From: a candidate division SR1 bacterium
Lineage (GTDB): Bacteria > Patescibacteriota > JACMRA01
Assembly (NCBI GenBank): GCA_014377045.1
Contig: JACMQI010000024.1
Location: 1 to 43,265 of the forward strand
Reading direction: 5' to 3'
DNA: 43,265 bases
Shown here: piece after piece, positions 1 to 37,046 of the stretch
Layout of the letters: each line of letters opens with the position of its first letter
Numbering within the stretch: position 1 is the stretch's first letter
Program-made: the position numbers and the translations under genes
Notes under the pieces: generated by a model
The model's database searches: none
Seen by the model: the letters and a program-made list of their open reading frames with translations, nothing else
What the model was told of the DNA's origin: nothing

Positions 1-720
1 CGTTACTTATCAACAAACTACCATTTAGATTTGCAACATCAGCTATATTTTTTTCGTAAGTTGTTCCTGCTCCACCAGGTGAACTTCCACTACCACCAGT
101 ATTAGAGACAGTACCTGAAAATGTTTTTGTAGCATAGTACAATGCTATCCTACCTCCGCCTCCACCAGAATTGCCAGCGCCTCCATGATTTCCACCGTTT
201 GCTGAGATAGTTCCTGTTCCAGCTAGTGTAGTTGCTTGAAGCCAGATAGATCCACCTGAACCACCTGATGGATAGTAATTTGGTACCCCACCATTTGCTG
301 AGATATTTCCATTGTTTGTTAAAGTTCCGGTAACTGCAAGCTTGATAGCTCCACCTCCATTACCACCTGCATAGCCACAAGAACCACCACCAGCTGAACC
401 AAGATCAGTAGGTTGAGTGATAGAGCCGTAGGTATTAGCTGCATTGTAACCACTTTGACCACCTTTTCCACCATAGCTTCCTCCTGAAACTGCTGCATAA
501 CAACTTCCATTACTATTTCCTGCTCCTGGCCCTTGACCAGCTACTATAGTTCCTATGTATCCTTTGGTATTTCCGTCTATGGTACCGAGTATATTGGCTG
601 ACTGAGCATATATTTTTACTACTTTTCCTCCAGTAGATCCTGTACCAGGTGTGTTGTCAAGACTAGCTGTGACCCCACCATTAACTCTAAACTCATTTAT
701 ATTACAATAACTACCAGACA
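1..720 (-). other. Glycine-rich repeat domain at the visible C-terminal end of the giant protein
   Basis: From about residue 3724 to the window edge the protein becomes very rich in Gly, Ser, Asn and Ala. It contains two similar I-S-A-N-G-G phrases (G-N-I-S-A-N-G-G and G-T-I-S-A-N-G-G) and runs such as SGGGGRIALYY. This looks like a Gly-rich extended or beta-helical stalk of the kind found in large bacterial adhesins. It follows an Fn3 domain and a short Cys-containing stretch. The domain continues past the left edge, so its length and any C-terminal anchor cannot be judged. Confidence 0.7.
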
Positions 721-3700
721 AAGTTTGATTTGTAGATATAATTAAATTTGCTCCTCCAATGTCAGTATCACAGTCCAATTTACTTACACTAAAAATATTG
801 GAATCAACACTATTACCGACGCTATTTACAGCAATAACTTTAAATTTGTAGGATTGTCCTGGTATCAAACCAGAAACTGCGGCAAAGTTGTTAGAACTCA
901 TACCATCATTAAAAATAGTTTCAGTAGCAAAGTTGTTTTGTGAGTATTTTATGATATAATCAGTTATCGGACTACCATTACTGTTCGGAGTAGACCATAC
1001 GAGATTTTGTGTATCGCCCTCAGAGGCCACACCCCTAAGATCAGTTACTTGGTTTGGAACAGCACTCACACCATAATTATAAAGATTGTTACCAGTTCCC
1101 GAAACTCCATCAGTATTGGTTACTTTTACATTTACAGTATTTGACCCAGCAGGCGTGTAAGCAGTGACGGTATGATCGTCAATAAAAGCACCTACAACTG
1201 TATTATTTGCAAAAGATACGTCAATTGCCTTGATTTGTGATCCTATAGTAACCGTAGGCTCTATAGCTGAAAATTTACGTACTAAAATAAAGTCAAACTT
1301 CACACCTGTAGCAGTCTCATCTCTATCAACACTAAATCCTACTTTTCCTGAACTGAATGAAGAATCATTTGCAGTAGTCGTAGTTGTTTGATTTGAGTCG
1401 AGTTTAGTTACACTATTTGATAATGAAGATCCATTAAATGATACTATTTGTCTATAACTAGTATTTGCTACTACACCTCCATTTGTTGGAGTCGCTGAAA
1501 TATTGCTGAAAGTTCCGCCTACACGCTTCACAAGTTCGTTTATATTTGTGTTATATGCTTCGAGAAATCCTGTATATTGATTGTTAGTGTCAGTATATCT
1601 AAACGAAACCCCTTTTCCTTGACTAGAACCTACGCTAAGTGGTGTATTTATCGTCTCAATTACAGCATTGGAAGTAGCAAAAGTCTTTGATATAAAGTGA
1701 CTATAAGGTACACCTGCAGATCCTGTAAGCGGTACCTGTAGTACGCCTCCGCTTTGAGTCCATGTATTACCTATTGCATCCCATTTATTTGTATCGATAG
1801 TATTTCCTTCGAAATCGTCAAAAAATTCAAATACATTATTTCCATTACTTTGTGAAGTCAAATTAGCTAATCCGTAAAACAGATTTAATTTTACAAAAGA
1901 CCCAGCATCTATATTAGGAATTTTAGTCCAAATGATGGTTTTATCTGTATTACATCCTGATTCAATCCAATACGGCAGGTCACCATTATCAGTATTTCTG
2001 ATTCTAAGATTTGAACAATCACTCGCTAACTTATTACTACTAATAAGACTAGATGTATTTACAACAAATTTAGTTTGATAATCTACCAAAGCAGTTGCAT
2101 TTGGATTTGAAATAGTAATAGGAATGAAACTATAGTTTAATGATGCAAAGTTAGTTCCACTTACGGTTACAAATGCACCACCACTATTAGGACCAGCATT
2201 TGGGCTAACAGAAGTTACTGTTGGAGCAACATAATTATAAGTAACATTGGTATTACTATCTATGTTGCCTGGAACTGTCATTTTTATGTTATAAGTTCCA
2301 AGTGGATTTGCAGGAATAGTGACTTTGACCTTTGTTGGTGATATAAATTGTACGGAAGTAGCATTTACGTTACCAATTTTCACTATAGTTTGAGAATATT
2401 CGTCTAAGATAGTTGTAGTTAGCTGATCTAAAGGTACTTTCGTGACAAATGTTTGTCCTGGATTAGAAGTACTAGAATAACCATAGTTATTGTATAAATC
2501 AGAGATTTCAGAAGCGCTTAAAGCTCGATTATAGATCTGTAGTTCATCGATAGAACCACTAAATACTCTACCGCTTGGATAATCAGTCGATCCAATAGTA
2601 AGATTAACTGACTGGACATTTGAAGAACCTATGGTTCCAGATGATACAGAGTTATTCATATAAAGCGATACGTTAGTTCCACTCATTGTCACAGCTTCAT
2701 GATTCCATGTATTTAAAGTAGCTGCTGGTGCAGACCCTGGAACATAATCGTTACAGTACGTTGCCATGCTAGGTCTTCCAGAGCTTTGAATAGACATCAA
2801 AAAAGAAATTCCAGAGCAACCTCTACCTCCCCAGTTAGCAATACCATTATACGATGCATCATTATAACCAGTTGGCTTGATCCATGCGACTGTAGACATA
2901 TTGCTTCCAGTTGGTAAGTTGACAGAAGCTCTTGTAAGCGAGCTATTTGACCCGTTAAAACCTCTTGCATTACCAAATTTACCTGGAGTAACAGTTGTGT
3001 TAGTACCGCCAGTTACACTATTAGTATTTTGAGTATCTTGAGCAGCACTTGATACATTTTCATCCATAGTAAAAGAGCTTACTAAGCCGCTAATTTTTCT
3101 AATAAAGACATTATCTGGGTTAGAAGCCGAAGCACTATTTAGATCACCATAAGAAAAATAAATTTCATTATTACCGGTATTCAAACTTGGCACTTTTATC
3201 CATATTTTAGTAGATGAAGTATTGCATCCTGTTTCTATCCAGTATGGTATATTATTATCATTTTGACTATCGCTAAATCTTATATCACCACAGTCTGATC
3301 GCATCTTACCTTGAGAAATTAGTTGAGAAGTATCTATATTTAGTGAAGTTTGATAATCTATAACACTAGTTTGAGTACCATTATTAAGTACAATTTTGCG
3401 ATTATAAACCCCTCCACCACCACCGAATGGAAAGTAATTACCATCTATCGTTATTTGATTACCACCCGCACTAGGTCCTGAATTTGGAGTTACTGAAGTT
3501 ATAATAGGTGCTACGTAAGTAAAGCCATTTGTTAACACCGCTGAATCACCGTTAGTATTGTTAAATGTTATATTCGCTGTACCTGGAATATGAGACGGTG
3601 TAGTTGCTGTAATAGTAGTAGAATTAACTAGTACAATTTTGGTTGCTTTCACAGTATCAAATAATACTGAAAAGTTTAGTGATTCTGTGCCAATATTTAA

Positions 3701-6700
3701 AATAGGTGAATTTGAAATACTATATAATTGATACTTTGCATTGAGATAACTTTCAATACTTTGCCTGTCCTGCGAGGAAAGCGAAGTGTCAAAAACCATA
3801 ACTTCGGCAACATCTCCATTAAAATATCCGTAACCTCCACCTCCACCTCCAAATGTTTTAGGTGCATAAATATTTGTTCTTGTAGAAGTCAGTCCATTTC
3901 TCACAATCTGCCCATTTAGATCGATTCGTGCAGTTTTATCTGTGTATGAGTAGCTAAGCGAACTAAAATTATTTCCATTGTTGGACGTTGTTACGGCTGG
4001 TGCAGTAAGATAACTAGGTGCATGCTCATGAACAGAAATACCGTTTGTTCCAAAGGCTATACCTGATCCACTATCAGAATTACCAGGATTTTCCGGGAAA
4101 GATAAGTATTGTCTAGCTGTTGTATCTGCTGAAGATAGATTCTCCGCTGGTAATGGTGTGCTTGAATTTGGCTTAGCTACATAGAAAGCAGTAAAATTAT
4201 TTGCGCCAAGCTGAGTTGTAGTATTGATGTAGTCATCTATTCCGTCAAATCTAATTATTGGCTGACCATTGAGCTGATCTTTCAAAAATACTGGACTGTA
4301 AGCCGCTGATGCCTGAGTTACATTATTGAAATTTGATGTTCTGTCGTTCCAAGTACCTATAGATGAGCTACTACAAGTACCGTCACAGAATTTGATGTCT
4401 TCAAAAGTATCACCTATTCCCCATATTGAGGCATCCGCTATCAAATTAAGGCTTGTTGGAGTATTACCGCTTTGGTAAAAAGCCATACCGTTCTTTTTGT
4501 AAAAGACTTTATTATTCAAAAGTTCAACAGATACTCTATCTCCTGGGACAACTGAGCCATAGCCTCCCGCATAACCGCCGCCTTGATAAACTTGAAGACT
4601 ACCATTTGCTGCTATATAAATAGCAAAATCAATATCAGTGTAGTTGCTATCCGTGTTTCCATTAGACAGCCCGATCATCATATTTGTTCTTCCAGTTAAT
4701 TGTTGCGGTATTTTAGCTGATACATATCCTTTTCCTTTTGAAATAGCATTTGTAGTAGTAAATCCTGCGTCCCAAGAACCATCGCTACCACCAGTTTTAC
4801 TAATATTACCACCATCTATAGTCACTCCTACGAGATTTTCAAAACCTGGCCTGACTTCTACGCTTTGATCTGGTATATTATTTGCAGATAACCAGAGCTT
4901 ATTGGTAGCACTTGCAAGTACACTTCCAAAACTAAAATTAGCAATATTTGACTGTGAAGTCAGTGCAGCATTTCCATATGAAAAGTATATCTTGTTTTGA
5001 CCGACTGAAAGCGTAGGCTTTTTAAACCAAACTATAGTTGTGGCTGTGTTGCATGTTGTATTATCAAAATAATAAACAAGATCAGTAGATTCGTCGCTAT
5101 CTTTAAGCCTTATATCACCGCAATCACTTTTCATCTTACCCGCTGTGATGAGACTTGCAGTATCTAATTTAAAACTTCCCTCATAATTAGTGATAGCACT
5201 AGCTGCTGGATTTGTAATATCAATAGTTTTATTATATCCAACTGAACTAAAATTCGTACCTGTAATAGTCACATCCGTACCACCAGTTACTGGTCCTACA
5301 TTTGGAGAAACAGAAGTAATAGAAGGTCCTGCGTAAGTAAAACCATTTGTCAAAACACCCTCATCTCCGCTCGAGTTAACAAACTTAACATTTACACTGC
5401 CTGCAGTATGACTAGGAACCTTAACTGATACAGAAGTTGAGTTGATAAGAGTAGTATTTGATGCTAGTGTAGTACCAAAATATACCTTTACATCTTTTGT
5501 TTCTTCGTTACTGGTAATGGTAGGTAGAGTAGATGTATTAAAAAGCTGATATTTTGTATTTAAGTATTTTTCTATAGATAAACGATCTGGAGTTGAAAGG
5601 GCTGTATTAAAAATTATAGTTTCAGCTATATCACCATTGAGCCATTCAGCACTCACTTCAAAAGGTCTACCTAATCTTAAAGGTTGACCATTATATGAAG
5701 TATAGTCTAATGCTGTACTAAAACTTTGTAGATTACCATTAGTTCCAACCAAATGATCTGTACCGCTATTTCCAATTATAGTTTTTAATTGAAATTGACC
5801 TAAATTACATGGAAAATTTAAAACATTACCATCTGATCCTGAATAAAATCTATCACAAACAACTTGCAATTTTCTTCTTGATCCACCACCCTGATTGACA
5901 TCATTTTTTCCTATAAAAGTACCTCCACCTACATTACTTTTTCCAACTATAAATATACTTGGATTGGATATGTTGAATTGTGAAGGGTTAGCAACATCTA
6001 GTGAATCATCTGACCCATCAAATCTTACAACTGGCTGACCATTTAATGTATTATTTTTTAGAATTGGTTTATTAATAGAAGTTGATCGTGAAGCATTATT
6101 GAAATTACTTGACCTGTCTTTCCATAAAGACACTTGGCCTCCATCAGTCGTGACATCAACTCCAGTATTTGCCGATAGCCATAGTTTGTTATTTGTGCCG
6201 GTCAGTAAAGATCCAAAGCTAAAATTAGATATATTAGATTGAGACGTGTTAGCTAATTTACCATAGTTTAGATAAATAGTATTATTTCCTGCGTTTAATG
6301 TTGGTTTTTTGAACCAAACTATTGTATTAGGCAAATTACAATCCCCATCTATCCAGTAACTTAAGTTCGTAGTTTCGTCAGAATCCAATACTCTTAAGTC
6401 ACCACAGTCACTTCTAAGTTTATTTGCAGCAATTAAACTAGCAGTATCAATCTTTATACTACCTTCGTAGTCTGAAATAGATGTATTTAATGGATTATTG
6501 ATTGATATAGATTTTTTGTAACCTGCAGATGCAAAATTTGCACCATTGATAGTCACGGTATCCCCGCCTAAAGTGCTACTAGAATTAGGCGATACAGAGG
6601 AAATAGTCGGTGCTAGATAAGTAAAACCATTAGTAAGAGTTGCGCTATCTCCACTAGAATTACTAAAAACTACATTGACTGCACCAGCCGTATGTGAGGG

Positions 6701-9700
6701 CACAACAGCCGTAACGGTAGTTGTATTTACAACTGTTAGATTTGTTGCTGGAGTGTTACCAAATAATACAGTAATGCCATTAAATTCTGATCCAGTAGAA
6801 ATACTTGGTAAATTAGATGGGTTAAATAAACGATATTTTGTATTCAAATAATTTTCTACTGTTTGGCGATCCGTATTTGAAAGTGCGCTATTAAATAAAA
6901 GAACTTCGGCAATATCACCATTAAAATAATTACCTCCACCTGAAACAATTGAAGTGTATCCTAAATCAAACGTTCCCGTTGTAAAATTTGAATCGCTCTT
7001 AGTACCAGTAGTTCCCGCTTGTCCATTTAAATACATTATATTGGTAGATCCATTATAAACTGAACTAGATAATTTGGCTTGACCTGCAAATGCGTCCTGC
7101 GTAGAGAAAGATGCACCAGAAGCACTGCCCCATGCTGAAATAAATTTACTACCTCCTTGAGGAGGATAATAGTAAGGTCCAGCAAAAAATCCTGTTGTAC
7201 TATCAGGACCCCAAGAAACTGGAGATGGCCCATAATTTGAAGGAAAATTTAAGTGATTTGTGACAGAAAATAGAGTAAAATTTGTATTTCCGGATAATGG
7301 CAGAGGTGCGCTCATTCCATCATTAACACCATCAAATCTAATCACTGGTTGACCATTTAGTGCATTAGTTTTGAGTATTGGTTGTCTAGTTGACGATGCT
7401 TGAAGCGCGTTATTACCTAGCCCTGATTTATCAGTCAAGTTTGAAATTGATCCATTATCTGAAGTTTGACCGTTAGCAGTGTTCGCGGAAACCCAAAGTT
7501 TGTTATTTGCACCACTTATAATAGGCCCGAAACTGAAGTTATTTATATTACTCTGACTAAAATTAATAGAATTTCCATAAGACAAAGTCACTGTTGAAAC
7601 ACCTGTTGGTAAATTTGGTTTTTTAAACCATAAAATGCTTGAAGGATTATTACAAGACCCCTTTTCAAGATAATAGCTTAGATTTGTAGTGCCATCACTA
7701 TCTTTAACTCTCAGATCTCCACAGTCACCTCTTAATTTACCAGCACTAATAAGGCTGGCGGTATCGAGTGTAATACTCCCCTCATAGTTTGTGATGGCAT
7801 TAATATCTGGGTTAGTTATAGATATGACTTTTTTATAACCATCTGAAGCAAAATTTGTACCACTAATAGTCACAGTATCACCACCTACAGTACTACCTGA
7901 ATTAGGTGATACGGAGGAAATAGTAGGAGCAGCATACGTAAACCCATTGACTAGTGTATCAGTTTGATTATTATTATCTGTGACTACGATATTTTTAGGT
8001 CCTGTAGATCCAGCAGGTACATTTACTAAAAACGAATTTTTGGCACCACCTATCACGGAAGTGGTAGCATTATTACCTCCAATTGTAACTTTTAATGGGA
8101 TTGTCAAACTTGCAGATGATTGTGAAGGAATATTAGAAAGTATTCGGTATTTCTTCCCTAAATAATTTTCGATTTTTGCATTATCACTTGTATCAAGTGG
8201 CGTATTAAAAATGACTATTTCACTTGTCAAACCAATTAATGGTCCATGAAAACCTCTATCTTTATCAAAAGTATTTGCCCCTACATTTCCAGTAGTTATA
8301 AGTGAAAACATCAATGGTTGGTTATAAATTGGGACTGTAGAAATGGTGCTAGCAGCCGATCCATTTATTCGAAATATTCCACTTGTGATATTACCACTAG
8401 CAATTCCATTGGCAAAATAAGCACCATCGCCGCTTCTATGAAAATCATATGAGCCAGTATCTCCAAGTAAAAATGATCCAGCTCCACCTCCTGGTGCGGT
8501 TTCTTTCCAAACTATATATACAGAGCGAATATCCGAGACACGATTTGTAAATGAATAGCTATTTGATCCATTAAATTGTAAAGTTGGTTGATTATTAATA
8601 CCTGAATTTTGATAAGTTGCTCCAGAAAATCCACCTTGAATATTAAGATCATTACCATTTCCAGATTGATCTTGCCACTTAGAAACAATACCTCCATTAG
8701 TAGTTGTACTCGTTCCCGCGTTTGCCTTAACCCAGAGTTTGTTTGTCGCTGGATTAAATAATGCACCAAAAGATAAGTTTGTTATACTACTTTGACTAGC
8801 AAATCCAGGATTATTAAATGTGATAAAAATATCACTTAAACCTGCTGGCAAGGTAGCAAGTTTGTACCAAACTAGTGTTTTTGTAGTATTACATCCTGAT
8901 TCAATCCAGTAAGGTGCGTTAATAGAAGCAGAATCTAAGACTCTAAGGTCACCACAATCAGGTCGCATTTTTCCTTGTGAAATCAAAGTAGCAGTATCAA
9001 TTACACTAACATCTTCATAATTAGTAATAGCACTACCAGGATTATTCAATGTTATCTTTAGATTTTCTCGAGTGTCTAAATTGATACCAGTTAACGTTAT
9101 ATTATAGCCTCCTACTGTAGCTCCAGTGTTTGGAGTAACTGCGGAGATTTTAGGAGCAAAAGCTATATCTTGAGCCTGACTCGCAATAGAATTTTGTAAT
9201 GTATTATACGCTGTAATTCTAAAGCTATAAGGTCCAGTTGTTAAATTAGTTATACTTGCAGAAAGACCAGCAATATAGATGGAACTTATATTAGAGCTAA
9301 ATCTATCATTTGAGTACTCGATTTTATAACCAGTTGCACCAGTTACTGCACTCCAAGAAAGATTTACAGCGGTCTCGTTAGCTTGTTTAGAAACAGTAAA
9401 TCCACTAGGAGTACTTAGAATTGTCAGCGGTGAAGCAGTAGTATCAGCGCTACCTAATGTATAATAACCAGCTTGCAAATTTGTATCTGAAACCGCAAAA
9501 GATACACGATCGCCGTTGGTAATAGTCGTGCTTGTTGTTGCAAGAGCAGTAAAAGCTCCACTAGTACCATTTCTATACAATAATTTATAATTTGAAGTTA
9601 CTCCAGGAATTCCTAATGAGTACTGTGACAAATCGAAAGAAAGAGTAGCGTTTATACCATTTACAGATGTCTTACCAATGCCCCAAATTCTGTTCCAGCG

Positions 9701-11869
9701 AGTACTAACTCCAGCGGGAATATCTGTTGTAGATAATGTATTATTACCTCCATCATGAGCAGCCATGACATACTCACCTGTATCCAAGGTATTTGTAGGA
9801 TCAGAAATAGTTAAACCTTGAGATCCTCCAGATTGGCTAATTGTTAAGTCATCCTCTTTACCAATACCAATAAGTTTATTATTAGCACCAGAAGCTAAAC
9901 TATATTTACTATTACTTATAGATATAGCATATTTCGCAGACAAATAATTATCAATAATTGTTCGTTGTGTCGAAGCGACGTTATTTCCCAGTGTTATTAC
10001 CTCCGATATATCTCCTGTAATTGAAAAAGTATTTGTGCTTCTACCTCCAATGAAAAAAGGAGCGGAAGCACTACCTGTTACATTCGAAGCAATTGGGTTT
10101 GTTAAAGTTTGCGAGGTGCCATTTAAATAAAGATTATGATCAGTATTATTGCCAGCATAAGTTTGATTAATTATTTGTGGAGTATTGTTCGATCCCCAGT
10201 TAGTGCCTATAACTTTTGCTGAGGATTGACCAGATCTTTTTACAAAGGATGAATAATCAGACGTTGAATATAAATAAGAAGAATCTGGGTTAGAGTTTGA
10301 ATCAGTAGAATGTTCATAATAGAGACCATTTCCAGATATTTTGGATACTATATAATTTGTAAATGAGCTGTTTAATATCAAATTATTTTGAGTTCCAATA
10401 ATAGTATTCGCCGCACCATTAAATCTTACTGATGGCTTACCATTTATACCTCCACTTTGAAAGGTTGGCTGGTTTGCTGATATCGTCTGTACCGCATTAT
10501 TTCCATTACCAGATTTATCTTCCCAAGTACTTACTGACGCCCCATCAACTGTTTGTCCTGTACCAGAACTAGCGTCAAAGTGTAGTTTAAGTTTTGCACT
10601 ACAACCTACAGCACCAGTTCCATATTTAGCAGAAAGATAACACTCAACTTGTTTCTGTTCATTAGCAGATAAAGCTCTATTATAAATCAATATTTCAGCT
10701 ATATCACCATAATAAAAACTTGAATTGTTCCAATTTCCTATAGCTATTTTATCAGTATTGGTAAGTCCAGTAAGCGCAGCATCAGATGCTAAAAGTAGAC
10801 CATTTCTATAAAGTTTATGACCTACAGTACTATCAAAGGTACCAGAGCTAAGACTAGCATTATTAGGTATATATCCGTCTACAGTGGCATCGACATTTTG
10901 TCCGAACTGTGCAAATCTAAAAGTAGTATTATTTTGATAACCAAAATGCAAAGCTTGATTAGTATTAAAACTAGTCACATTTGCAACAATTGGCCAAAGT
11001 GCATTCGGTGCAGCATTTCGTTTATCTATAGTAAAAATTGAATAGTTTGAGTTCGCCGGAATAATATTGTTTGTAGTCAAAAGGCTGTCGTTTATTCCAT
11101 CAAATCTAACTGCTGGCTTACCATTGATTGCATTATTGACTAAAATAGGTTGATTAGGAACAGTATTTTGCACTGCGTCATTGTAGGAACCGCTTTGATC
11201 TGTCCAGCTTGTTACATTAGATCCAGTTGTTGCTACAGTACCTGCATCCATTCTCATACTTAGCCCGCTCGTAACTGGAAGGGTCTCACTATCGTATGTT
11301 TGCAAGTTACTTTCTATATCATCATCTAATATAGTATAAGTATGTACAGTTATACCTCCAAGCGTCATTCCAACACTAGGGCTGGAAAGTGTTATCTGTA
11401 TAGTTCTATTATCTTGAGCAATTTTATTATCTATTACAATTAATGGTAATAAAGCTTGTGATTCTCCGGCTTTAATAGTTACCACACCACTTGTATTTCC
11501 ACTAAAATCAGATCCAGATTTTGCAGTTCCACCCGTTACCGCATAGTTTATAGATACATCATTAGTATTGGTTTGCGAAGCCTTAATGATTATATCTGGC
11601 CTTACTGATTCGAGTTTAGATGATATATTTTGCGCAAATTCAACTGAACCACTAGAGGCAAAAGATTTAAAAAAATTGTTTTGCAGTATTTGAAAACCTA
11701 CAGTAAAAAATAATCCTAGTACAAAAAAGAAAGATACCAACATCAAAATAAATCTAATGTTTTTAATATAGATATTTTCTAACTTTCTATTTGAGATTTT
11801 ACCTGAAAATATGCTTTTAATTTTATTAATAACATTTTTCTTATGAAGATTTTTTTTTGGAAAAAACAT
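1..11869 (-). CDS. Giant modular surface protein (LamG/ConA-like, TIG, DUF2341, Fn3, Calx-beta, Gly-rich), C-terminus beyond window
   Basis: I translated the frame from the ATG at 11869. I checked it codon by codon over the first 4 kb from the left edge and by following the translation elsewhere, and found no stop, giving at least 3,956 residues; the gene is cut by the left edge. The N-terminus is basic, followed by one membrane segment (about residues 40-62), then a Calx-beta domain (about 73-185). After that come concanavalin/LamG-like jelly rolls, recognisable by the motif N-G-x-P-x-x-R-F-D-G, a region of unknown type (about 645-810) and an Fn3 domain (about 814-900). Six units of TIG/IPT plus DUF2341 follow; most DUF2341 copies carry a paired Cys signature (SDCGD...CN). 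Jelly rolls usually sit between units and are followed by an E-x-YL-x-x-KY motif. A second Fn3 (about 3600-3690) and a Gly-rich tract end the visible part. These families are known in extracellular adhesins. I infer an anchored or secreted attachment protein; its ligand is unknown. Confidence 0.9.
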   Translation of the reverse strand, partial: MFFPKKNLHKKNVINKIKSIFSGKISNRKLENIYIKNIRFILMLVSFFFVLGLFFTVGFQILQNNFFKSFASSGSVEFAQNISSKLESVRPDIIIKASQTNTNDVSINYAVTGGTAKSGSDFSGNTSGVVTIKAGESQALLPLIVIDNKIAQDNRTIQITLSSPSVGMTLGGITVHTYTILDDDIESNLQTYDSETLPVTSGLSMRMDAGTVATTGSNVTSWTDQSGSYNDAVQNTVPNQPILVNNAINGKPAVRFDGINDSLLTTNNIIPANSNYSIFTIDKRNAAPNALWPIVANVTSFNTNQALHFGYQNNTTFRFAQFGQNVDATVDGYIPNNASLSSGTFDSTVGHKLYRNGLLLASDAALTGLTNTDKIAIGNWNNSSFYYGDIAEILIYNRALSANEQKQVECYLSAKYGTGAVGCSAKLKLHFDASSGTGQTVDGASVSTWEDKSGNGNNAVQTISANQPTFQSGGINGKPSVRFNGAANTIIGTQNNLILNSSFTNYIVSKISGNGLYYEHSTDSNSNPDSSYLYSTSDYSSFVKRSGQSSAKVIGTNWGSNNTPQIINQTYAGNNTDHNLYLNGTSQTLTNPIASNVTGSASAPFFIGGRSTNTFSITGDISEVITLGNNVASTQRTIIDNYLSAKYAISISNSKYSLASGANNKLIGIGKEDDLTISQSGGSQGLTISDPTNTLDTGEYVMAAHDGGNNTLSTTDIPAGVSTRWNRIWGIGKTSVNGINATLSFDLSQYSLGIPGVTSNYKLLYRNGTSGAFTALATTSTTITNGDRVSFAVSDTNLQAGYYTLGSADTTASPLTILSTPSGFTVSKQANETAVNLSWSAVTGATGYKIEYSNDRFSSNISSIYIAGLSASITNLTTGPYSFRITAYNTLQNSIASQAQDIAFAPKISAVTPNTGATVGGYNITLTGINLDTRENLKITLNNPGSAITNYEDVSVIDTATLISQGKMRPDCGDLRVLDSASINAPYWIESGCNTTKTLVWYKLATLPAGLSDIFITFNNPGFASQSSITNLSFGALFNPATNKLWVKANAGTSTTTNGGIVSKWQDQSGNGNDLNIQGGFSGATYQNSGINNQPTLQFNGSNSYSFTNRVSDIRSVYIVWKETAPGGGAGSFLLGDTGSYDFHRSGDGAYFANGIASGNITSGIFRINGSAASTISTVPIYNQPLMFSLITTGNVGANTFDKDRGFHGPLIGLTSEIVIFNTPLDTSDNAKIENYLGKKYRILSNIPSQSSASLTIPLKVTIGGNNATTSVIGGAKNSFLVNVPAGSTGPKNIVVTDNNNQTDTLVNGFTYAAPTISSVSPNSGSTVGGDTVTISGTNFASDGYKKVISITNPDINAITNYEGSITLDTASLISAGKLRGDCGDLRVKDSDGTTNLSYYLEKGSCNNPSSILWFKKPNLPTGVSTVTLSYGNSINFSQSNINNFSFGPIISGANNKLWVSANTANGQTSDNGSISNLTDKSGLGNNALQASSTRQPILKTNALNGQPVIRFDGVNDGMSAPLPLSGNTNFTLFSVTNHLNFPSNYGPSPVSWGPDSTTGFFAGPYYYPPQGGSKFISAWGSASGASFSTQDAFAGQAKLSSSVYNGSTNIMYLNGQAGTTGTKSDSNFTTGTFDLGYTSIVSGGGNYFNGDIAEVLLFNSALSNTDRQTVENYLNTKYRLFNPSNLPSISTGSEFNGITVLFGNTPATNLTVVNTTTVTAVVPSHTAGAVNVVFSNSSGDSATLTNGFTYLAPTISSVSPNSSSTLGGDTVTINGANFASAGYKKSISINNPLNTSISDYEGSIKIDTASLIAANKLRSDCGDLRVLDSDETTNLSYWIDGDCNLPNTIVWFKKPTLNAGNNTIYLNYGKLANTSQSNISNFSFGSLLTGTNNKLWLSANTGVDVTTDGGQVSLWKDRSSNFNNASRSTSINKPILKNNTLNGQPVVRFDGSDDSLDVANPSQFNISNPSIFIVGKSNVGGGTFIGKNDVNQGGGSRRKLQVVCDRFYSGSDGNVLNFPCNLGQFQLKTIIGNSGTDHLVGTNGNLQSFSTALDYTSYNGQPLRLGRPFEVSAEWLNGDIAETIIFNTALSTPDRLSIEKYLNTKYQLFNTSTLPTITSNEETKDVKVYFGTTLASNTTLINSTSVSVKVPSHTAGSVNVKFVNSSGDEGVLTNGFTYAGPSITSVSPNVGPVTGGTDVTITGTNFSSVGYNKTIDITNPAASAITNYEGSFKLDTASLITAGKMKSDCGDIRLKDSDESTDLVYYFDNTTCNTATTIVWFKKPTLSVGQNKIYFSYGNAALTSQSNIANFSFGSVLASATNKLWLSANNIPDQSVEVRPGFENLVGVTIDGGNISKTGGSDGSWDAGFTTTNAISKGKGYVSAKIPQQLTGRTNMMIGLSNGNTDSNYTDIDFAIYIAANGSLQVYQGGGYAGGYGSVVPGDRVSVELLNNKVFYKKNGMAFYQSGNTPTSLNLIADASIWGIGDTFEDIKFCDGTCSSSSIGTWNDRTSNFNNVTQASAAYSPVFLKDQLNGQPIIRFDGIDDYINTTTQLGANNFTAFYVAKPNSSTPLPAENLSSADTTARQYLSFPENPGNSDSGSGIAFGTNGISVHEHAPSYLTAPAVTTSNNGNNFSSLSYSYTDKTARIDLNGQIVRNGLTSTRTNIYAPKTFGGGGGGYGYFNGDVAEVMVFDTSLSSQDRQSIESYLNAKYQLYSISNSPILNIGTESLNFSVLFDTVKATKIVLVNSTTITATTPSHIPGTANITFNNTNGDSAVLTNGFTYVAPIITSVTPNSGPSAGGNQITIDGNYFPFGGGGGVYNRKIVLNNGTQTSVIDYQTSLNIDTSQLISQGKMRSDCGDIRFSDSQNDNNIPYWIETGCNTSSTKIWIKVPSLNTGNNEIYFSYGDLNSASASNPDNVFIRKISGLVSSFTMDENVSSAAQDTQNTNSVTGGTNTTVTPGKFGNARGFNGSNSSLTRASVNLPTGSNMSTVAWIKPTGYNDASYNGIANWGGRGCSGISFLMSIQSSGRPSMATYCNDYVPGSAPAATLNTWNHEAVTMSGTNVSLYMNNSVSSGTIGSSNVQSVNLTIGSTDYPSGRVFSGSIDELQIYNRALSASEISDLYNNYGYSSTSNPGQTFVTKVPLDQLTTTILDEYSQTIVKIGNVNATSVQFISPTKVKVTIPANPLGTYNIKMTVPGNIDSNTNVTYNYVAPTVTSVSPNAGPNSGGAFVTVSGTNFASLNYSFIPITISNPNATALVDYQTKFVVNTSSLISSNKLASDCSNLRIRNTDNGDLPYWIESGCNTDKTIIWTKIPNIDAGSFVKLNLFYGLANLTSQSNGNNVFEFFDDFEGNTIDTNKWDAIGNTWTQSGGVLQVPLTGSAGVPYSHFISKTFATSNAVIETINTPLSVGSSQGKGVSFRYTDTNNQYTGFLEAYNTNINELVKRVGGTFSNISATPTNGGVVANTSYRQIVSFNGSSLSNSVTKLDSNQTTTTTANDSSFSSGKVGFSVDRDETATGVKFDFILVRKFSAIEPTVTIGSQIKAIDVSFANNTVVGAFIDDHTVTAYTPAGSNTVNVKVTNTDGVSGTGNNLYNYGVSAVPNQVTDLRGVASEGDTQNLVWSTPNSNGSPITDYIIKYSQNNFATETIFNDGMSSNNFAAVSGLIPGQSYKFKVIAVNSVGNSVDSNIFSVSKLDCDTDIGGANLIISTNQTLSGSYCNINEFRVNGGVTASLDNTPGTGSTGGKVVKIYAQSANILGTIDGNTKGYIGTIVAGQGPGAGNSNGSCYAAVSGGSYGGKGGQSGYNAANTYGSITQPTDLGSAGGGSCGYAGGNGGGAIKLAVTGTLTNNGNISANGGVPNYYPSGGSGGSIWLQATTLAGTGTISANGGNHGGAGNSGGGGGRIALYYATKTFSGTVSNTGGSGSSPGGAGTTYEKNIADVANLNGSLLISN
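2010..9170 (-). repeat. Six tandem TIG-DUF2341 units, about 1.2-1.8 kb apart, inside the giant gene
   Basis: The TIG strand motif (S-P-N-x-G) recurs near plus positions 9130, 7905, 6590, 5290, 3480 and 2200. The DUF2341 Cys signature recurs near 8955, 7720, 6405, 5120, 3295 and 2015. The spacing is close to 1.3 kb except for one unit of about 1.8 kb, which holds a longer jelly roll. The middle copies (about 4.9-8.0 kb) are the most alike at DNA level, with shared phrases such as the TIG entry sequence, so recent duplication or recombination among them is likely. The cysteines suggest one disulfide per DUF2341 copy outside the cell. Confidence 0.8.
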
Positions 11870-19177: not shown

Positions 19178-20074
19178 TTGATCAAAAAGGTAAATAATTT
19201 GAATAATTTTTTGCAGGTTACAAATTTTCTAAAACAAAACAATAAAGCTATACCAAGCAAAACCCTGTTATGTGTAAATGGTACTATCAATATATTTGAT
19301 ACTCCGTTCAAGCCCCCACATGAACTAATGCATTTTTTCAGCGAAAGTATGATTTTAGATTTAGTTACTAAATTAGGCTTAGAGTATAAGATAGAACGTA
19401 CTTTTTCGCACGCGAGTGAAATATATACTGACTTAATCGAGGAAGTTTTTAAAGCGTCAACAATTACAAAATTACAAAATGAATCTCATCAAATTTGCGT
19501 ACCAAGTAAAGCTCTTACTTTTGATTTTTACGACTTAGTCGATACTTCAATTTTGTTACTGAATTTGAAAAAGCATCATAAAATAATTTCGAAAATTCTA
19601 AAGAAACCCTCTAAGCTACTGTTTCCTAAGTACAGGACTATATGGAATTCGCGATCAAGTTTTCATCAAGATTTGATTGAATTCGATATTCATGGAAAAA
19701 AATCGGTTGGTTTAAAGATAATAGATGACCACTTAGCAGAACAAGATACTTCACTTTTGTTACTACTAGATCATGCCAAATTTGCATTTAAAGTACTCCA
19801 CAATATACTCCCAAAAGAATATATTACTGATGGACACTCAAATCAATATCAATTTAAAATTGATTCATCGTTGGGTAAAATTGTAATAAATTGTGATGAC
19901 TATACACAAAAGTACTTTGCATACGCAAGAAATATAAAATACACAAATACAAAATCAGTTAATTGCGATCAGTTTGATGAGGTTGTCCAGTGTATAACAC
20001 CAGATATTACCAAAATTGAATTTGATCAATTAATTAATCAACACTCTTCATTGTTTGGATATTTCCTACAGTAA
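19178..20074 (+). CDS. Hypothetical protein, no family recognised
   Basis: The protein has 298 residues from a TTG start; the first ATG inside the frame is much later, so the start is uncertain. It has no signal peptide or membrane helix. It is mixed alpha/beta by appearance, with a Leu-rich segment (S-L-L-L-L-L-D-H-A-K near the middle) and several His-containing stretches (K-P-P-H-E-L-M-H, T-F-S-H-A-S-E). I see no catalytic motif that I can name. A TTGACA box lies at 19097-19102 and a TATAAT at 19147-19152, but they are not correctly spaced to each other. The stop codon sits inside a large hairpin (see 20065-20128). It stands alone between a dead gene on the other strand and trxB. Confidence 0.55.
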   Translation: MIKKVNNLNNFLQVTNFLKQNNKAIPSKTLLCVNGTINIFDTPFKPPHELMHFFSESMILDLVTKLGLEYKIERTFSHASEIYTDLIEEVFKASTITKLQNESHQICVPSKALTFDFYDLVDTSILLLNLKKHHKIISKILKKPSKLLFPKYRTIWNSRSSFHQDLIEFDIHGKKSVGLKIIDDHLAEQDTSLLLLLDHAKFAFKVLHNILPKEYITDGHSNQYQFKIDSSLGKIVINCDDYTQKYFAYARNIKYTNTKSVNCDQFDEVVQCITPDITKIEFDQLINQHSSLFGYFLQ

Positions 20075-25180: not shown

Positions 25181-26899
25181 ATGGCAACTTCTCTTAATCC
25201 TGCACTTTCTGAAAGAGATCCAGATTCTGTAAATCTTAGTATTATTTCAACATCTAAAAAACTCAGAATACAGCGTATAAAAAGTGATTTAGACCATGCC
25301 TTTATCGAAGCAGACACCAAAGAAACTGCGGTATATTTGAGTTTACCATATATTGATTTGTATGGATTTCCTATAGACACGGGTTATTTGGCGTTAATTC
25401 GGAAAGCAGATGCTATAAAATATCACTTAGGAGTGTTCAACATTGTAGGAACAGAAGCCGAGGTAGCAACTCCACAGCCTAATTTTCCAGGTCAAAAAAT
25501 AGTTTTAGATAGGTTGAAACGAGCTGGCTATAAAACAAAAATGTATTTTGTTTCGAATCTTAGTTTTAGTAAACTTATTAAGACATATGATTCAGTGCTT
25601 GTACCTGAAATAATTAATGACAATATTGACCTACATGAAGATCTATTTACTAAATTTAATACAGATAATTTTAGCCTTGTAGATACCGAAAAAACTTTGA
25701 CCTCCCTATCTCTATCTAATATAGTAGACGCAATTTTAGCTATTGCACTAAATTTTGATGCTTCAGATATTCACTTTGAACCAGAAAAAGAAAGTTACAA
25801 TATCAGATTTAGACTTGATGGTGTGCTTCATACCATTGCTAGACTTCCTGCAGAAAGACGTAAGCCTATTGAATCAAGACTAAAACTTATTTCGGGCTTA
25901 AAACTAAATGTAGATAATATACCTCAAGACGGCCGTTTTAGTTTTCATGCTCACGATAAAGATGTAGATGTGCGTGTATCTATGCTTCCTTCAAATTATG
26001 GATATTCTGTAGTTATGCGTTTACTTGGTACAGGTAGTATCAGCTTGGTACTTAAAGACCTTGGTTTTAGTGGACTCGCAAAAGCTCGAGTGGACGCAGC
26101 AATTGAAAGGCCGCAAGGATTAATCTTAACCACTGGTCCCACAGGTAGCGGTAAAACTACAACACTATATACATTTTTAAATAGTATGAATGACGGTGAA
26201 GGTAAAATCATCACACTTGAAGATCCTATCGAATACAAATTACCTGGTATCTCTCAAACTCAAATCGACGCTAATGCAGGATATACTTTCGCTTCAGGGC
26301 TGAGATCTATATTAAGGCAAGATCCAGATTTGGTTATGGTGGGAGAAATACGTGACGGCGAGACTGCAGAAATTGCTGTTCAAGCTTCACTAACTGGACA
26401 CCAAGTACTATCGACTATTCATACAAATGATGCCGCAGGTGCAATACCTCGTCTCATGGAAATGGGTATTAAGGGATTTTTACTTGCTGATTCTTTACAG
26501 GCAGTTATCGGACAGCGACTAGTTAGAAAGCTTTGTATATACTGTAAAACAGTTGCAATACTAGACGATAACGAAAAAAAGATTGTTATTAAGTCACTTT
26601 CAACACTTCCAAAAATAGCAAATATCACACTACCAGAAGAGCTAACATTTTATACAGCTCCAGGATGCGAAAAATGCGAAAGAATGGGATACAAAGGCCG
26701 TATTGGTTGCTATGAAATATTGACTATGACAGATGGATTAAAATCCTTAGTTTCAGAGCAATATCCAAGTATAGTACAAGTGCGTCAAACTGCAATAAAT
26801 GATGGTATGGTAACTATGTTTCAAGATGGTGTTCTTAAAGCTCTAGAAGGTATCACTGATATCAAAGAACTTATTAGGAATATCGATAGTGGATCGTAA
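25181..26899 (+). CDS. pilB: Type IV pilus assembly / type II secretion ATPase, PilB/GspE family
   Basis: A hexameric ATPase that drives pilin polymerisation at the inner membrane. The 572-residue protein has an N-terminal regulatory domain of the T2SSE_N type (about 50-170, including Y-L-S-L-P-Y-I-D-L-Y-G), then the core. Visible are D-A-S-D-I-H-F-E-P, the Walker A box G-P-T-G-S-G-K-T (319-326), the Asp box E-D-P-I-E-Y, Walker B (D-L-V-M-V-G-E-I-R-D) and the His box (T-G-H-Q-V-L-S-T-I-H-T-N-D). The zinc-binding pairs C-I-Y-C and C-E-K-C follow. All catalytic motifs are intact. No pilC, pilT or prepilin gene is adjacent, so the partner genes must lie elsewhere. It stands in its own transcription unit and converges on holB with a 21-base gap. 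Confidence 0.93.
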   Translation: MATSLNPALSERDPDSVNLSIISTSKKLRIQRIKSDLDHAFIEADTKETAVYLSLPYIDLYGFPIDTGYLALIRKADAIKYHLGVFNIVGTEAEVATPQPNFPGQKIVLDRLKRAGYKTKMYFVSNLSFSKLIKTYDSVLVPEIINDNIDLHEDLFTKFNTDNFSLVDTEKTLTSLSLSNIVDAILAIALNFDASDIHFEPEKESYNIRFRLDGVLHTIARLPAERRKPIESRLKLISGLKLNVDNIPQDGRFSFHAHDKDVDVRVSMLPSNYGYSVVMRLLGTGSISLVLKDLGFSGLAKARVDAAIERPQGLILTTGPTGSGKTTTLYTFLNSMNDGEGKIITLEDPIEYKLPGISQTQIDANAGYTFASGLRSILRQDPDLVMVGEIRDGETAEIAVQASLTGHQVLSTIHTNDAAGAIPRLMEMGIKGFLLADSLQAVIGQRLVRKLCIYCKTVAILDDNEKKIVIKSLSTLPKIANITLPEELTFYTAPGCEKCERMGYKGRIGCYEILTMTDGLKSLVSEQYPSIVQVRQTAINDGMVTMFQDGVLKALEGITDIKELIRNIDSGS

Positions 26900-28847: not shown

Positions 28848-29879
28848 TTATTTCGTCAACTCAAAACGAAGATCAGAAAGTTTCTTTGAACCTTTGATCC
28901 AAAACCAGCTATGTGGACGTATCGAATCATCACTAAAAAAACCCTCTAAGTCATTAGCAGTGTCAACCGCTTTAAATGTATGATTATCATATCTAATGTA
29001 TGCAATAACCCCGTCCTTCTTAGCAAAACCCTGCTCATCACATTTAAGCCACTCGCTCCCTACTAAATATATTTCTTCTAAAAAGTCATTATATTTTTTT
29101 CTCAATGACACAAGTCTTTCTAAGATTTCATTGTATTCGGTTATCGAAATATCATTCAGATCGCTCATTTCTTCTAGTATTATAGTATGTTTAGGTGGTA
29201 TAACCATATTATTTTCGTACTCTGGACTATCAAAATTAGCATGAGAGTATATATTTACGATTTCTTCAAAGGTGTCCAAAAAACACTGAAGTGAAATAAA
29301 ATCTGTGCCAATAGTATTGTCGATAACAGTGATGTCTACCTTACCTTTTACAATATCGAAAGTATGCGGTGGCAAGTCTATTTTTCCCACTATATCCTGT
29401 ATACTGACCTTATTTAAATCATATTTTGATTGTAGTTTTTCTAGCATAGAGACTATTTTAGCAGATGACTTAGGCCATAAATACTGATCATCAAAGGTAT
29501 ATTTATTCATAGCAGTGAGCAAAAATTTTGGGCCCCGAGCTACTTCTACTTCCATTTCTAAGCTACTGGTATCAGTTTCGCCGATCAATACAGTATTTTT
29601 TTGCTTAATAGATTCAAAAAGTAATCTAATTTTATTAGTATTATTAATCGTAAATACACTCCAGCCATTTGCTTTAAAAAGCTTTTTTATAAATAATATT
29701 TCGATATTTTTTTCTTTTAATCTTGAAAGCCGAACGATTGGAAGCTCAGACTGAAATTTTCTATAATAATCCTTTTGCAACTTTGAAATAAAAATCTGAG
29801 CAACTATATTAGTGAATTTATTTGAAGTTAGTACTTTAAACATATCTGAACAATGAAGCCAAAAAATTATCTTGTCCAT
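28848..29879 (-). CDS. Hypothetical protein, first gene of the fmt-holB operon
   Basis: The protein has up to 343 residues, with an N-terminal basic helical region, a central segment with T-V-L-I-G-E-T-D-T-S-S-L-E and a helical stretch (about 230-270). The C-terminal part has aromatic residues (H-S-W-F-W-I-K-G-S-K-K-L). No signal peptide, no membrane helix and no motif that I can assign. The ATG at 29879 lies one base beyond the T-run of a terminator-like hairpin. The next in-frame ATG, at 29843 (M-F-K-V-L-T-S-N-K-F), is a reasonable alternative start. Co-directional with fmt and holB, so a housekeeping role is possible but unproven. Confidence 0.6.
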   Translation of the reverse strand: MDKIIFWLHCSDMFKVLTSNKFTNIVAQIFISKLQKDYYRKFQSELPIVRLSRLKEKNIEILFIKKLFKANGWSVFTINNTNKIRLLFESIKQKNTVLIGETDTSSLEMEVEVARGPKFLLTAMNKYTFDDQYLWPKSSAKIVSMLEKLQSKYDLNKVSIQDIVGKIDLPPHTFDIVKGKVDITVIDNTIGTDFISLQCFLDTFEEIVNIYSHANFDSPEYENNMVIPPKHTIILEEMSDLNDISITEYNEILERLVSLRKKYNDFLEEIYLVGSEWLKCDEQGFAKKDGVIAYIRYDNHTFKAVDTANDLEGFFSDDSIRPHSWFWIKGSKKLSDLRFELTK

Positions 29880-32727: not shown

Positions 32728-35259
32728 ATGATTAATTTTCGTATGCTACATAAATTTAAAGTATCTTTTAATAGTGCAGTTCAAATATTCTTAGCAAAAA
32801 AAATTATCAATCTATTATTACTGCTAATATCAGCGATATTATTTTATTTTTTGAGTTTTGAAATAGGGTTTTTCTTTCTCATTTTATCTTTTTCAATGGT
32901 CAATCGTTTCTCTCCTAAAGTCCTTATTATTGGAGCTTTAGTTTTACTTGTTTCTATCCCTTTATTTCTCATACTTGAACAAGATAGTACAGCAGAAAAA
33001 ATAGCGATTTACGTATACTATCTTCTAATAGCTACAGTTATTGTCGAAGTAACGACTCTCATAAAAAACCGTTTAAAAACAAAAAATAATCTAAATCAAA
33101 GTGTCAAAGTATCTTCTGAAGAAGAGCTCGAGCGCACAGTCGTAGAAATAGAAGCAAAGCCTACGTTACAGCTTACACAGAAAAAAAGTATTTCTATGGA
33201 GTTTCAAAGGCGGCCTACCATTATAAACTCAAATATCATCTTAGCCATACCTCCCGAAAAACCAATAGCAAAAAAATTAACTGAAATAATAGAAAGTAAA
33301 AAACCAAATAAAAATATCAATTTAAAAAAACTTTTCACCAATCTGAGTGGGCCGATAGATAATTCCGAACCAAAGCAAAAGTTCACTTTTCCAAATTTTG
33401 GCATTAAAGTACAAAATATACCTAGCTTTTGGAACTATATTGTACTATCTATATCAGCTTTAATACCTATAGTAATTTTTCGATTTACAGGATTACCTAG
33501 TTTTCGTGATTTAACCACAGTTCCATATTTTTATAATATTCAAAATGGCCCTTTTGACCTCAGTGTCATAGAAAATATAGCGTTTAATCAACTTACACGT
33601 TTTTTAAATCCCGAAACTATAAGCAGCTTATTTTTTCAACTCTTTTTCTTTTTAGGAACTATAGTTAGCTATTTTTTTCTCCTAAAGATACAAAAAATAT
33701 TTACGACAAACGATTCTTATACATCGTCAAATAGTAATAAAATTTTAGTTTTTTTAATCAGCTTACTGTATGTTTATAATCCATTTACATTTGAAAGATT
33801 TTTAATGGGCCAACACTTTGTTCTAAGAGGTCACCTACTTTTTATTCCAGTAATATTTTACCTACTCCAATTTCTAATAGCTTTTACAGAATTTAAAAAA
33901 CCTGAATTTTACTTACTTAGTGAAAAAAATATTAGCTCATTTAGCAATTTTGGATGGGCTCTAACGCTGATATCATTACTCAACACACATCACGGTCTGT
34001 TCGCTATATCTTTAGCAATTATAGGCTTCATATTTATAGGCCTTTCGAACACAAAGTATATTTATAAAAATGTAAAGAAAACTGACTCTTCAGCTATTTT
34101 AAACAATATTTTTAAGGTATTTAGTATATTACTCCTTATTGTATTACCAAGCGTTATTATATTTATCAATCGCTATAGCAATAACCCTCAACAAGTGACA
34201 TTTGAAAAGCAAAAAATAGAGCAACCAGATTTACAGCGACAAACAATTTCTGCCTTTAGTCTCAAAGTACTAGACGATCAAAATTTAGTATCAAAAGCTT
34301 TGATAGGAGCCGCAAGCTGGAACACACCTAGTTTTAGTGAAGTAAATAGCATTGCAGTGTCTCTAGGGAGTCTAAGGAAAGCGAGCATTTATTATAGCCC
34401 TAAACTCAATATATTTTTCATTTTATTTATTTGTATCATACTTGGATACTGTGCTTATCTCGCCGATAAATTTTTTAAACCACTTTTGTTTCCATTTTTA
34501 TTACTAATACCTATACTTTTAATACTAAATTTCGGATATTCAAGAAATTTTGAAAAGATCAACTCGCTATTTTTTAGCTTACCTTTTAGCTATACTTTTC
34601 GCGAAGCTGGCAAATTTTATAGTTTATTTTTAGCACTCTTATCTGTTATATTAGTTACTTATAACGAACACTTTACTAGGTATATAAGAAAAATAAGTAT
34701 TGGAATTTTTAGTTTTATTCTTATTGGAAACCTGCTCGTTTTTCTTCCACTTAGTCAGAATATAGTCTATGCAGATTACCCTGAGATACTCAAAGATTTA
34801 TCCGCTAATTGTAAGCGAAGCGATAAAACAAAAGTATTATTTTTACCCTTTACTACTTACATTTATCCTTCTTATAGTAATGTGTTTACAGCAAACTATA
34901 GTAGATACCTTTTAAATTGCGAGGTTTTGAGCGCTGATTATACTATTCTTGAAAATCGTGAATTGACAAGTAAATCAACAAATAAAATAGAACTATCAAA
35001 TAGCAAAGTCTCAAACAGTATCAATGGTATCATATCAACATTTACTAAATCAAATTCTACAGATTCAAATGCGTATGAAAATCTGAGAAAAGAGCTTCGT
35101 ATATTTGGAGTCTATACAATTGTTGTTGACGAAACAAATTATTCCGACACTTCAAATTACGATTTGGGAGTATTTAGTAAAAAGCTTCAACAATACATCA
35201 CTCCAGATAGTACTCAAAAAAATGATATCGTAAATATGTCTATTTACTCATTAAAATAA
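32728..35259 (+). CDS. Large polytopic membrane protein, GT-C/YfhO-like, function unknown
   Basis: The protein has 843 residues. Three or four N-terminal helices (about 20-115) are followed by a polar, Lys-rich linker (about 120-230). A second membrane part (about 232-670) has a dozen helices, and an outside-facing soluble domain (about 680-843) follows. The loop Y-V-Y-N-P-F-T-F-E-R-F-L-M-G-Q-H is a pattern I associate with large CPR membrane proteins; L-P-S-F-R-D-L lies in the first loop of the second part. The plan resembles GT-C glycosyltransferases and YfhO, but no catalytic acid pair can be assigned. A TTGACA at 32699-32704 suggests its own promoter, with a poor -10 box. The ATG at 32743 is an alternative start. 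A role in surface glycan or lipid modification is a guess. Confidence 0.7.
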   Translation: MINFRMLHKFKVSFNSAVQIFLAKKIINLLLLLISAILFYFLSFEIGFFFLILSFSMVNRFSPKVLIIGALVLLVSIPLFLILEQDSTAEKIAIYVYYLLIATVIVEVTTLIKNRLKTKNNLNQSVKVSSEEELERTVVEIEAKPTLQLTQKKSISMEFQRRPTIINSNIILAIPPEKPIAKKLTEIIESKKPNKNINLKKLFTNLSGPIDNSEPKQKFTFPNFGIKVQNIPSFWNYIVLSISALIPIVIFRFTGLPSFRDLTTVPYFYNIQNGPFDLSVIENIAFNQLTRFLNPETISSLFFQLFFFLGTIVSYFFLLKIQKIFTTNDSYTSSNSNKILVFLISLLYVYNPFTFERFLMGQHFVLRGHLLFIPVIFYLLQFLIAFTEFKKPEFYLLSEKNISSFSNFGWALTLISLLNTHHGLFAISLAIIGFIFIGLSNTKYIYKNVKKTDSSAILNNIFKVFSILLLIVLPSVIIFINRYSNNPQQVTFEKQKIEQPDLQRQTISAFSLKVLDDQNLVSKALIGAASWNTPSFSEVNSIAVSLGSLRKASIYYSPKLNIFFILFICIILGYCAYLADKFFKPLLFPFLLLIPILLILNFGYSRNFEKINSLFFSLPFSYTFREAGKFYSLFLALLSVILVTYNEHFTRYIRKISIGIFSFILIGNLLVFLPLSQNIVYADYPEILKDLSANCKRSDKTKVLFLPFTTYIYPSYSNVFTANYSRYLLNCEVLSADYTILENRELTSKSTNKIELSNSKVSNSINGIISTFTKSNSTDSNAYENLRKELRIFGVYTIVVDETNYSDTSNYDLGVFSKKLQQYITPDSTQKNDIVNMSIYSLK

Positions 35260-35360: not shown

Positions 35361-35783
35361 ATGCTTAAAAAGTTGTTTAAGTTGATTTTAAATATTATCT
35401 CTTGGATTAAGAATAATACTTTAAAAAAGAAAAATAAACTGAAAAAATCTAAAGCACTTGATGGCAGTTACACTTTTGACAAATATGTATTTGACATATT
35501 GATTAGTTTTATCAATACATCAGAATACTATCATCTAATATTAACTTATCAATGCGAAATAAAAAGTAGTTCAAAATATGAAGACCGACTTAATATTCTA
35601 GACATTTTATTTGAAGCCATGATTTCAGATGGACTATGTTTTGGTTCTAAGCTAAATAAAAATATCTGTGAAAGTTTTATCTATTTTTTAAAGATTTTAA
35701 GATGTATACCAGAAACCTCAGTAAATCAATTAGACGAAGATACATACCAAAAAGTTTTCTCTAGTTTTCAACAACTAACATAG
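35361..35783 (+). CDS. Small basic/helical protein, no family recognised
   Basis: The protein has 140 residues. The N-terminal 30 are a hydrophobic then very Lys-rich segment (L-K-K-L-F-K-L-I-L-N-I-I-S-W-I, then L-K-K-K-N-K-L-K-K-S-K), possibly a membrane-surface anchor. The rest is predicted to be helical with scattered Cys (five in the second half). A TTGACA is present at 35303-35308 without a clear -10 box at the right distance. A perfect terminator follows 12 bases after the stop, which supports a real single-gene unit. Function unknown. Confidence 0.55.
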   Translation: MLKKLFKLILNIISWIKNNTLKKKNKLKKSKALDGSYTFDKYVFDILISFINTSEYYHLILTYQCEIKSSSKYEDRLNILDILFEAMISDGLCFGSKLNKNICESFIYFLKILRCIPETSVNQLDEDTYQKVFSSFQQLT

Positions 35784-35795
35784 ATAGTTATAATT

Positions 35796-35826
35796 GATTG
35801 TCAGTCAAAATGACAATCTTTTTTTT
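35796..35826 (+). terminator. Perfect rho-independent terminator after the 35361 gene
   Basis: GATTGTCA (35796-35803), a 7-base loop, TGACAATC (35811-35818) and eight T (35819-35826). Confidence 0.9.
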
Positions 35827-35899
35827 GGTCAACTAAATATCAGATTGAGTATTATAATAAATAATAAGGTATACTATTATTAAACTACATTAATATGAG

Positions 35900-36350: not shown

Positions 36351-36379
36351 AAAAACTATATTAAGTAATTATTTTAGTT

Positions 36380-36840: not shown

Positions 36841-37046
36841 AATAAACTATATTAGGAATATTTTAACTATTGTACAATAGACAATAGTATATTATTTGCA
36901 AAGTTTTGATTTATTACCAAATTCTTATAATTTAATATATCAATTTCTGTTCTTGATTTGAAATATTATTTGACTTGATTTTTAATAATAAGTTTAATTA
37001 TTACAATAATAACATTTTCACTACCTGCAAACCAAAAACAATTTTT

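Follow-up and report, generated by a model that had tools for sequence, protein, structure and literature searches.

Several groups of large or modular surface proteins invite comparison with the locus described here. A survey of Patescibacteria counted 149 proteins of more than 4,000 aa, of which 82 carry FhaB and/or DUF2341 domains, and proposed a function in adhesion; in its accessible text these giants are reported as domain counts, and no split TIG domain or nested unit is described (PMC11809585). The CPR bacterium Vampirococcus lugosii has giant, multi-domain membrane proteins thought to attach to its host, for which the accessible part of the report names DUF11, integrin, fibronectin, PKD and WD40 domains and neither DUF2341 nor a split TIG (PMC8080830). 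Archaeal DUF2341 proteins encoded in type IV pilus loci are proposed pilus-tip adhesins, and the portion of that study available to us describes no split-TIG giant (PMC4858521). In RTX adhesins such as FrhA and MpIBP, a ligand-binding domain is inserted into a split Ig-like domain, which aims it away from the stalk (PMC10865825). Finally, PilC, a modular minor pilin of Streptococcus sanguinis (PDB 7oa7 and 7oa8) in which an Ig-like module is followed by a ConA-like lectin, has been shown to bind glycans (PMC9934059).

We analysed a window of 43,265 bases, the entire contig C10 of a 1.04-Mb genome in 42 contigs, which encodes a giant protein with features of each group. It resembles the surveyed giants in phylum, size, DUF2341 content and proposed adhesion, and the Vampirococcus proteins as a multi-domain giant. 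DUF2341 is what it has in common with the archaeal proteins; unlike theirs, its gene lies outside any type IV pilus operon. With FrhA and MpIBP it shares a split Ig-like domain bearing an insert and a beta-sandwich stalk, but its visible part has no RTX repeats, its sockets are TIG domains that stand six in series and not at one end, and what they carry is a cassette of DUF2341 and a jelly roll. PilC, unlike this protein, is a 52.8-kDa type IV pilin without a TIG socket. Giant DUF2341 proteins in Patescibacteria (PMC11809585) and split Ig sockets in other adhesins are already known. No description of six serial TIG sockets with DUF2341-jelly-roll cassettes was found in the open-access papers searched, and serial split-TIG display appears to be new to the literature.

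A giant modular reading frame

A preliminary description of this DNA had proposed a single open frame of at least 3,956 codons encoding a giant modular surface protein. The minus-strand frame begins with an ATG at 11869 and is open at the left contig end. About 290 stops would be expected in it from base composition and none is observed, and the remaining two frames of the minus strand hold 280 and 501 stops over the same interval. Its GC content by codon position, 0.41/0.47/0.19, is the pattern of a real gene. The window being the whole contig, there is no sequence to the left of position 1 and the C-terminus is cut by the contig end. HMM matches were obtained for every domain that had been named, and the proposal of a giant modular surface protein has good support. 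The features outside the repeated units are as follows.

2..11869, minus strand: giant ORF of 3,956 codons, C-terminus missing (stop-free frame)
11681..11773, minus strand: hydrophobic segment, aa 33-63, membrane anchor or signal sequence (hydropathy)
11318..11590, minus strand: Calx-beta, aa 94-184 (Pfam, 32.2 bits with the N-terminus scanned alone, cut-off 27)
10658..11092, minus strand: first Laminin_G_3 jelly roll, approximately aa 260-404 (Pfam, 5.5e-10)
9890..10597, minus strand: second jelly-roll-like region, approximately aa 425-660 (jelly-roll part of the unit profile, 4.9e-22; no Pfam match alone)
9191..9415, minus strand: fibronectin type III domain 1, aa 819-893 (Pfam, 2.2e-7)
794..1048, minus strand: fibronectin type III domain 2, aa 3608-3692 (Pfam fn3, best stretch)
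35..568, minus strand: Gly-rich region, aa 3768-3945 (29% Gly; present in both full-architecture homologues; no Pfam match)

A Pfam search of the full translation recovered DUF2341 six times (1.2e-78), TIG in 12 stretches (2.4e-53), Laminin_G_3 in four stretches (5.3e-31) and the two expected fn3 domains (1e-16). All named domains were thus found, with Calx-beta close to its cut-off (26.7 bits in the whole protein). The proposed N-terminal membrane segment corresponds to a single hydrophobic stretch; Lys-rich sequence precedes it up to about aa 33, which differs from the short leader reported for the modular pilin (PMC9934059). The Gly-rich end of the preliminary description is indeed rich in Gly, but it is the end of the contig and not of the protein.

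Six TIG domains split around DUF2341-jelly-roll cassettes

Six TIG-DUF2341 units had also been described. Six are present, but TIG does not precede DUF2341: it is split around a DUF2341-jelly-roll insert, and the 12 stretches matching TIG are the two parts of each of six domains. The units (U1 to U6), all delimited with HMMs, are as follows.

7934..9157, minus strand: U1, aa 905-1312; split TIG 9068-9157 and 7934-8116, 317-aa insert
6617..7933, minus strand: U2, aa 1313-1751; split TIG 7841-7933 and 6617-6796, 348-aa insert (also AlphaFold2 model)
5333..6616, minus strand: U3, aa 1752-2179; split TIG 6524-6616 and 5333-5512, 337-aa insert
3515..5332, minus strand: U4, aa 2180-2785; split TIG 5240-5332 and 3515-3694, 515-aa insert
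4355..4882, minus strand: extra U4 segment, aa ~2330-2505 (~175 aa), absent from the other units (alignment of units); without a match in Pfam or a credible one in the PDB
2231..3514, minus strand: U5, aa 2786-3213; split TIG 3425-3514 and 2231-2410, 338-aa insert (Laminin_G_3, 4.5e-21)
1073..2230, minus strand: U6, aa 3214-3599; split TIG 2141-2230 and 1073-1246, 298-aa insert

Each unit gives two over-cut-off half matches to TIG/IPT (PF01833), one from profile position 1 to ~45 and the other over ~28-84, and the whole domain is covered only if the insert is bridged. A routine HMM scan shows each unit only as two half-TIG matches. HMMs built from the TIG halves and DUF2341 returned the order N-half, DUF2341, C-half in all six units, with inserts of 298 to 515 aa. 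Three homologous TIGs are intact, two in the related genome G001 and one in locus L051, and have 4 residues between the halves, versus 287-515 in split TIGs, all of which contain DUF2341 at that position among those compared. The two intact TIGs of G001 are flanked by split ones with 327-509 residues between halves, and that of L051 adjoins one split TIG. The solved TIGs of Plexin-A1 and MET likewise show this arrangement in alignment, an N-half and, 3-6 residues further on, a C-half. Because the gap is so short in these intact domains, comparison of the sequences places the DUF2341-jelly-roll cassette in the same loop of every TIG, which we take from the TIG fold to be the loop between strands B and C. 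The layout is that of a split-Ig adhesin, a ligand-type domain inserted in the loop of an Ig-like domain, with putative ligand binding by the insert.

In each cassette a jelly roll comes after DUF2341, in most units apparently of the LamG/ConA type. DUF2341 (PF10102) exceeds its curated cut-off of 23.4 bits in every unit (33.9-81.6 bits). Scores for the LamG/ConA-like lectin profile (PF13385) are 76 bits in U5, 27.5 in U2 (cut-off 27.6) and 20.2 in U4, and the U1, U3 and U6 cassettes scanned alone gave no match to it. The U6 insert differs from the others in its second part, for which Pfam gave no match.

The units are 27-52% identical to U2. Between units, identity is 52% for the TIG N-half, 48% for DUF2341, 32% for the TIG C-half and 25% for the jelly rolls. 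With units this divergent, and with the same N-terminal order in the separate assembly of G001, an assembly chimera or repeat artefact is unlikely. A recent duplication of all units within the protein is unsupported, as a DUF2341 tree, most of whose forks are weak, does not group the six units of the window.

Structure prediction of one unit of about 440 residues, as the preliminary description had suggested, was performed on U2. The AlphaFold2 model (41 sequences) has a mean pLDDT of 79.7 and a pTM of 0.78; both TIG halves and the DUF2341 block reach about 90-98, and the jelly roll is of low confidence in part (40-75, partly below 50). The Foldseek matches of the model were sialidase/trans-sialidase entries, binding domains of neurotoxins and PilC of S. 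sanguinis (E 2e-5), each of them weak at a TM of about 0.3. At the sequence level PilC does not match the unit profile (E<=1).

A probable multi-site adhesin and other readings

We infer that the frame probably encodes the N-terminal portion of a giant Patescibacterium adhesin, either secreted or anchored in the membrane, whose split-TIG sockets would project lectin-like cassettes that grip glycans of other cells. The single hydrophobic segment would target or anchor the N-terminus. Behind it, a stalk of beta-sandwich domains would comprise Calx-beta, two jelly rolls, Fn3, six TIG, Fn3, the Gly-rich region and, judging from the homologues, SdrD_B. Each TIG would act as a split socket, in which the loop between the N-half (..GxNF strand) and the C-half (VxFGG strand) bears the cassette. 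The two halves of one unit presumably fold into one Ig domain, so that the chain would exit the stalk, fold the cassette and return, leaving the cassette hanging sideways with its far face free. The lectin-like cassettes would then most likely attach to glycans on the surface of another cell, with several sites that each bind weakly. Projection to the side, binding of glycans, contact between cells and surface location are all predicted properties, and the split Ig-like domains that project ligand-binding domains in RTX adhesins support the socket reading by analogy.

The preliminary description had called the protein, if it came from an episymbiont, a strong candidate for host contact. This putative role is plausible, given the lectin-type folds, the Patescibacteria lineage and the precedents in two reports (PMC8080830, PMC11809585). 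A more specific proposal, which we put forward tentatively and with slightly less than even confidence, is a serial, exchangeable display scaffold that arose in a small Patescibacteria class and also occurs in a Peregrinibacteria MAG, its six split TIG sockets, all using the same loop to take up a DUF2341-lectin cassette, giving an episymbiont a multi-site grip of varied specificity. The question bears on how Patescibacteria recognise and hold their hosts, which is largely open in the field. Should the cassettes prove to be lectins, every unit of ~440 residues would be a clearly bounded recognition module open to testing. The layout would also show how giant adhesins gain binding sites without a break in the stalk, by insertion in a domain loop and not between domains.

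The protein might instead be a passive coat or spacer, a long beta-sandwich chain that makes fibres or a coat for distance or protection and whose jelly rolls bind nothing specific. Its composition (S, T, N and G make up 44% of residues) would suit this, as would a match of the jelly-roll part to an S-layer domain-containing protein in the PDB (4.8e-4) and the fibrous, giant-protein-rich surface of Vampirococcus (PMC8080830). We nevertheless consider a coat unlikely, because jelly rolls that vary this much (25% identity) on a conserved socket (48-52% in DUF2341 and the TIG N-half) are better suited to varied binding. Less probable still is nutrient capture, in which the protein would bind polysaccharides or particles and not mediate cell contact: LamG/ConA-like folds are common among both glycan-binding and glycan-degrading proteins, and the Foldseek matches of U2 include arabinanase and arabinofuranosidase entries, but Pfam identified no catalytic domain in the visible part and none was evident in the parts of homologues scanned.

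The adhesin reading presupposes that the halves of one unit pair with each other. The C-half could in principle fold with the N-half of the next unit, placing DUF2341-jelly-roll blocks in line between permuted Ig domains. As a control, we modelled the contiguous 91-aa junction of a C-half and the next N-half, which also folds fairly well (pLDDT 86.6, pTM 0.68), so that AlphaFold2 models alone would leave pairing of neighbouring halves possible and do not decide the question. However, confidence in the N-half drops from 95-98 in the unit to mostly 56-91 in the junction, and the best PDB matches of the junction, the tandem TIGs of MET and Plexin-A1, superpose poorly overall at a TM of 0.47, with none at E<=0.001. 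The sequence evidence, that is, the comparison of intact and split TIGs in homologues, appears decisive: permuted pairing is highly improbable, since intact TIGs run N-half, 4 residues, C-half, and since the N-half at the start of U1 and the C-half at the end of U6 would both be left without a partner.

Homologues, the missing C-terminus and neighbouring genes

Genomes of the same phylum as the window are identical over about 3 kb to records of Candidatus Dojkabacteria (G072 = L095) and candidate division Kazan (G116 = L115); both groups are Patescibacteria, which places the window in that phylum. Relatives were searched in overlapping sets of 145 and 380 genomes, and full-unit matches were confined to the window genome, G001 and G004. 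The remaining matches in the phylum are to DUF2341, some with jelly-roll sequence, without the TIG frame. Within the class of the window genome (six genomes of one family compared), G001 and G004 have the same overall architecture, and their Gly-rich regions are 36-42% identical to that of the window protein. The G004 homologue is an open frame of 6,205 aa, a lower bound as it is cut at its 5′ end. That of G001, which repeats the N-terminal domain order, spans about 19.9 kb in three overlapping frames, with about 6,600 aa read across them; the two frameshifts in this gene (L125/L126, G001:C35:11715-31602) are either real or sequencing errors.

A scan of named genomes with one degenerate motif, not exhaustive, caught five full units, four in the Peregrinibacteria MAG palsa_1335 and one in MAG BP8.bin61. 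In palsa_1335, the split-TIG giant gene is immediately preceded, on its upstream side, by another giant frame of at least 2,747 aa (L050:2-8338, plus strand). A viral origin was rejected: viral contigs gave DUF2341 or TIG matches, with no full split unit among the matches listed. Elsewhere, the window genome contains a cluster of secreted proteins, two with DUF2341 (G000:C15, L128:8506-14718), and a series of secreted ORFs that looks much like it, with DUF2341 in one of them, occurs at G003:C10:100472-104994.

The window protein is incomplete, and the sequences of its same-class homologues run on past the Gly-rich region with SdrD_B repeats. A search of its own genome with the C-terminal 2,000 aa of G004 gave no match, and one with SdrD_B gave one 789-aa fragment at the end of contig C33. 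Open frames at contig ends were also checked for a continuation (several short contigs reading as N were left out). The C33 fragment was the sole candidate to match the homologues, but weakly (35% over 57 aa), and we do not claim it as the continuation. The C-termini of G001 and G004 lack LPxTG, and RTX repeats (GGxGxDxxx) are found neither in the visible window protein nor in the G001 and G004 sequences, C-terminus included. The window genome has three sortase-family loci, and the start of its contig C42 (L200:1-850) encodes a C-terminal fragment of another surface protein with an LPRTGG end, a hydrophobic stretch and a positive tail. The breaks in this assembly may be due to long genes for surface proteins, as contigs C3, C8, C17, C22, C27, C31, C33, C39 and C42 end inside large Ser/Thr/Asn/Gly-rich open frames.

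On the opposite strand, 95 bases from the ATG of the giant gene, starts a tandem pair of T4SS pilin-type genes (PF18895; 11965-12732 and 12735-13574, plus strand), the first just below the cut-off and the second also matching TrbC. No T4SS pilin genes were recognised beside the G001 giant gene in its ORF list, and G004 is cut at that point; a conserved neighbourhood is unsupported on this list. Three window ORFs have no Pfam match at E 0.01 (32728-35259, plus strand, 843 aa; 28848-29879, minus strand, 343 aa; 19178-20074, plus strand, 298 aa), and a very AT-rich stretch of ~1.2 kb at 35783-36975 (GC about 0.26) has no ORF of 60 aa. A T2SSE-family (PilB-type) ATPase gene (25181-26899, plus strand, E 4e-119) lies 13 kb from the giant gene, and a type I restriction-modification specificity subunit (Methylase_S; 41817-43265, minus strand) is open at the right contig end.
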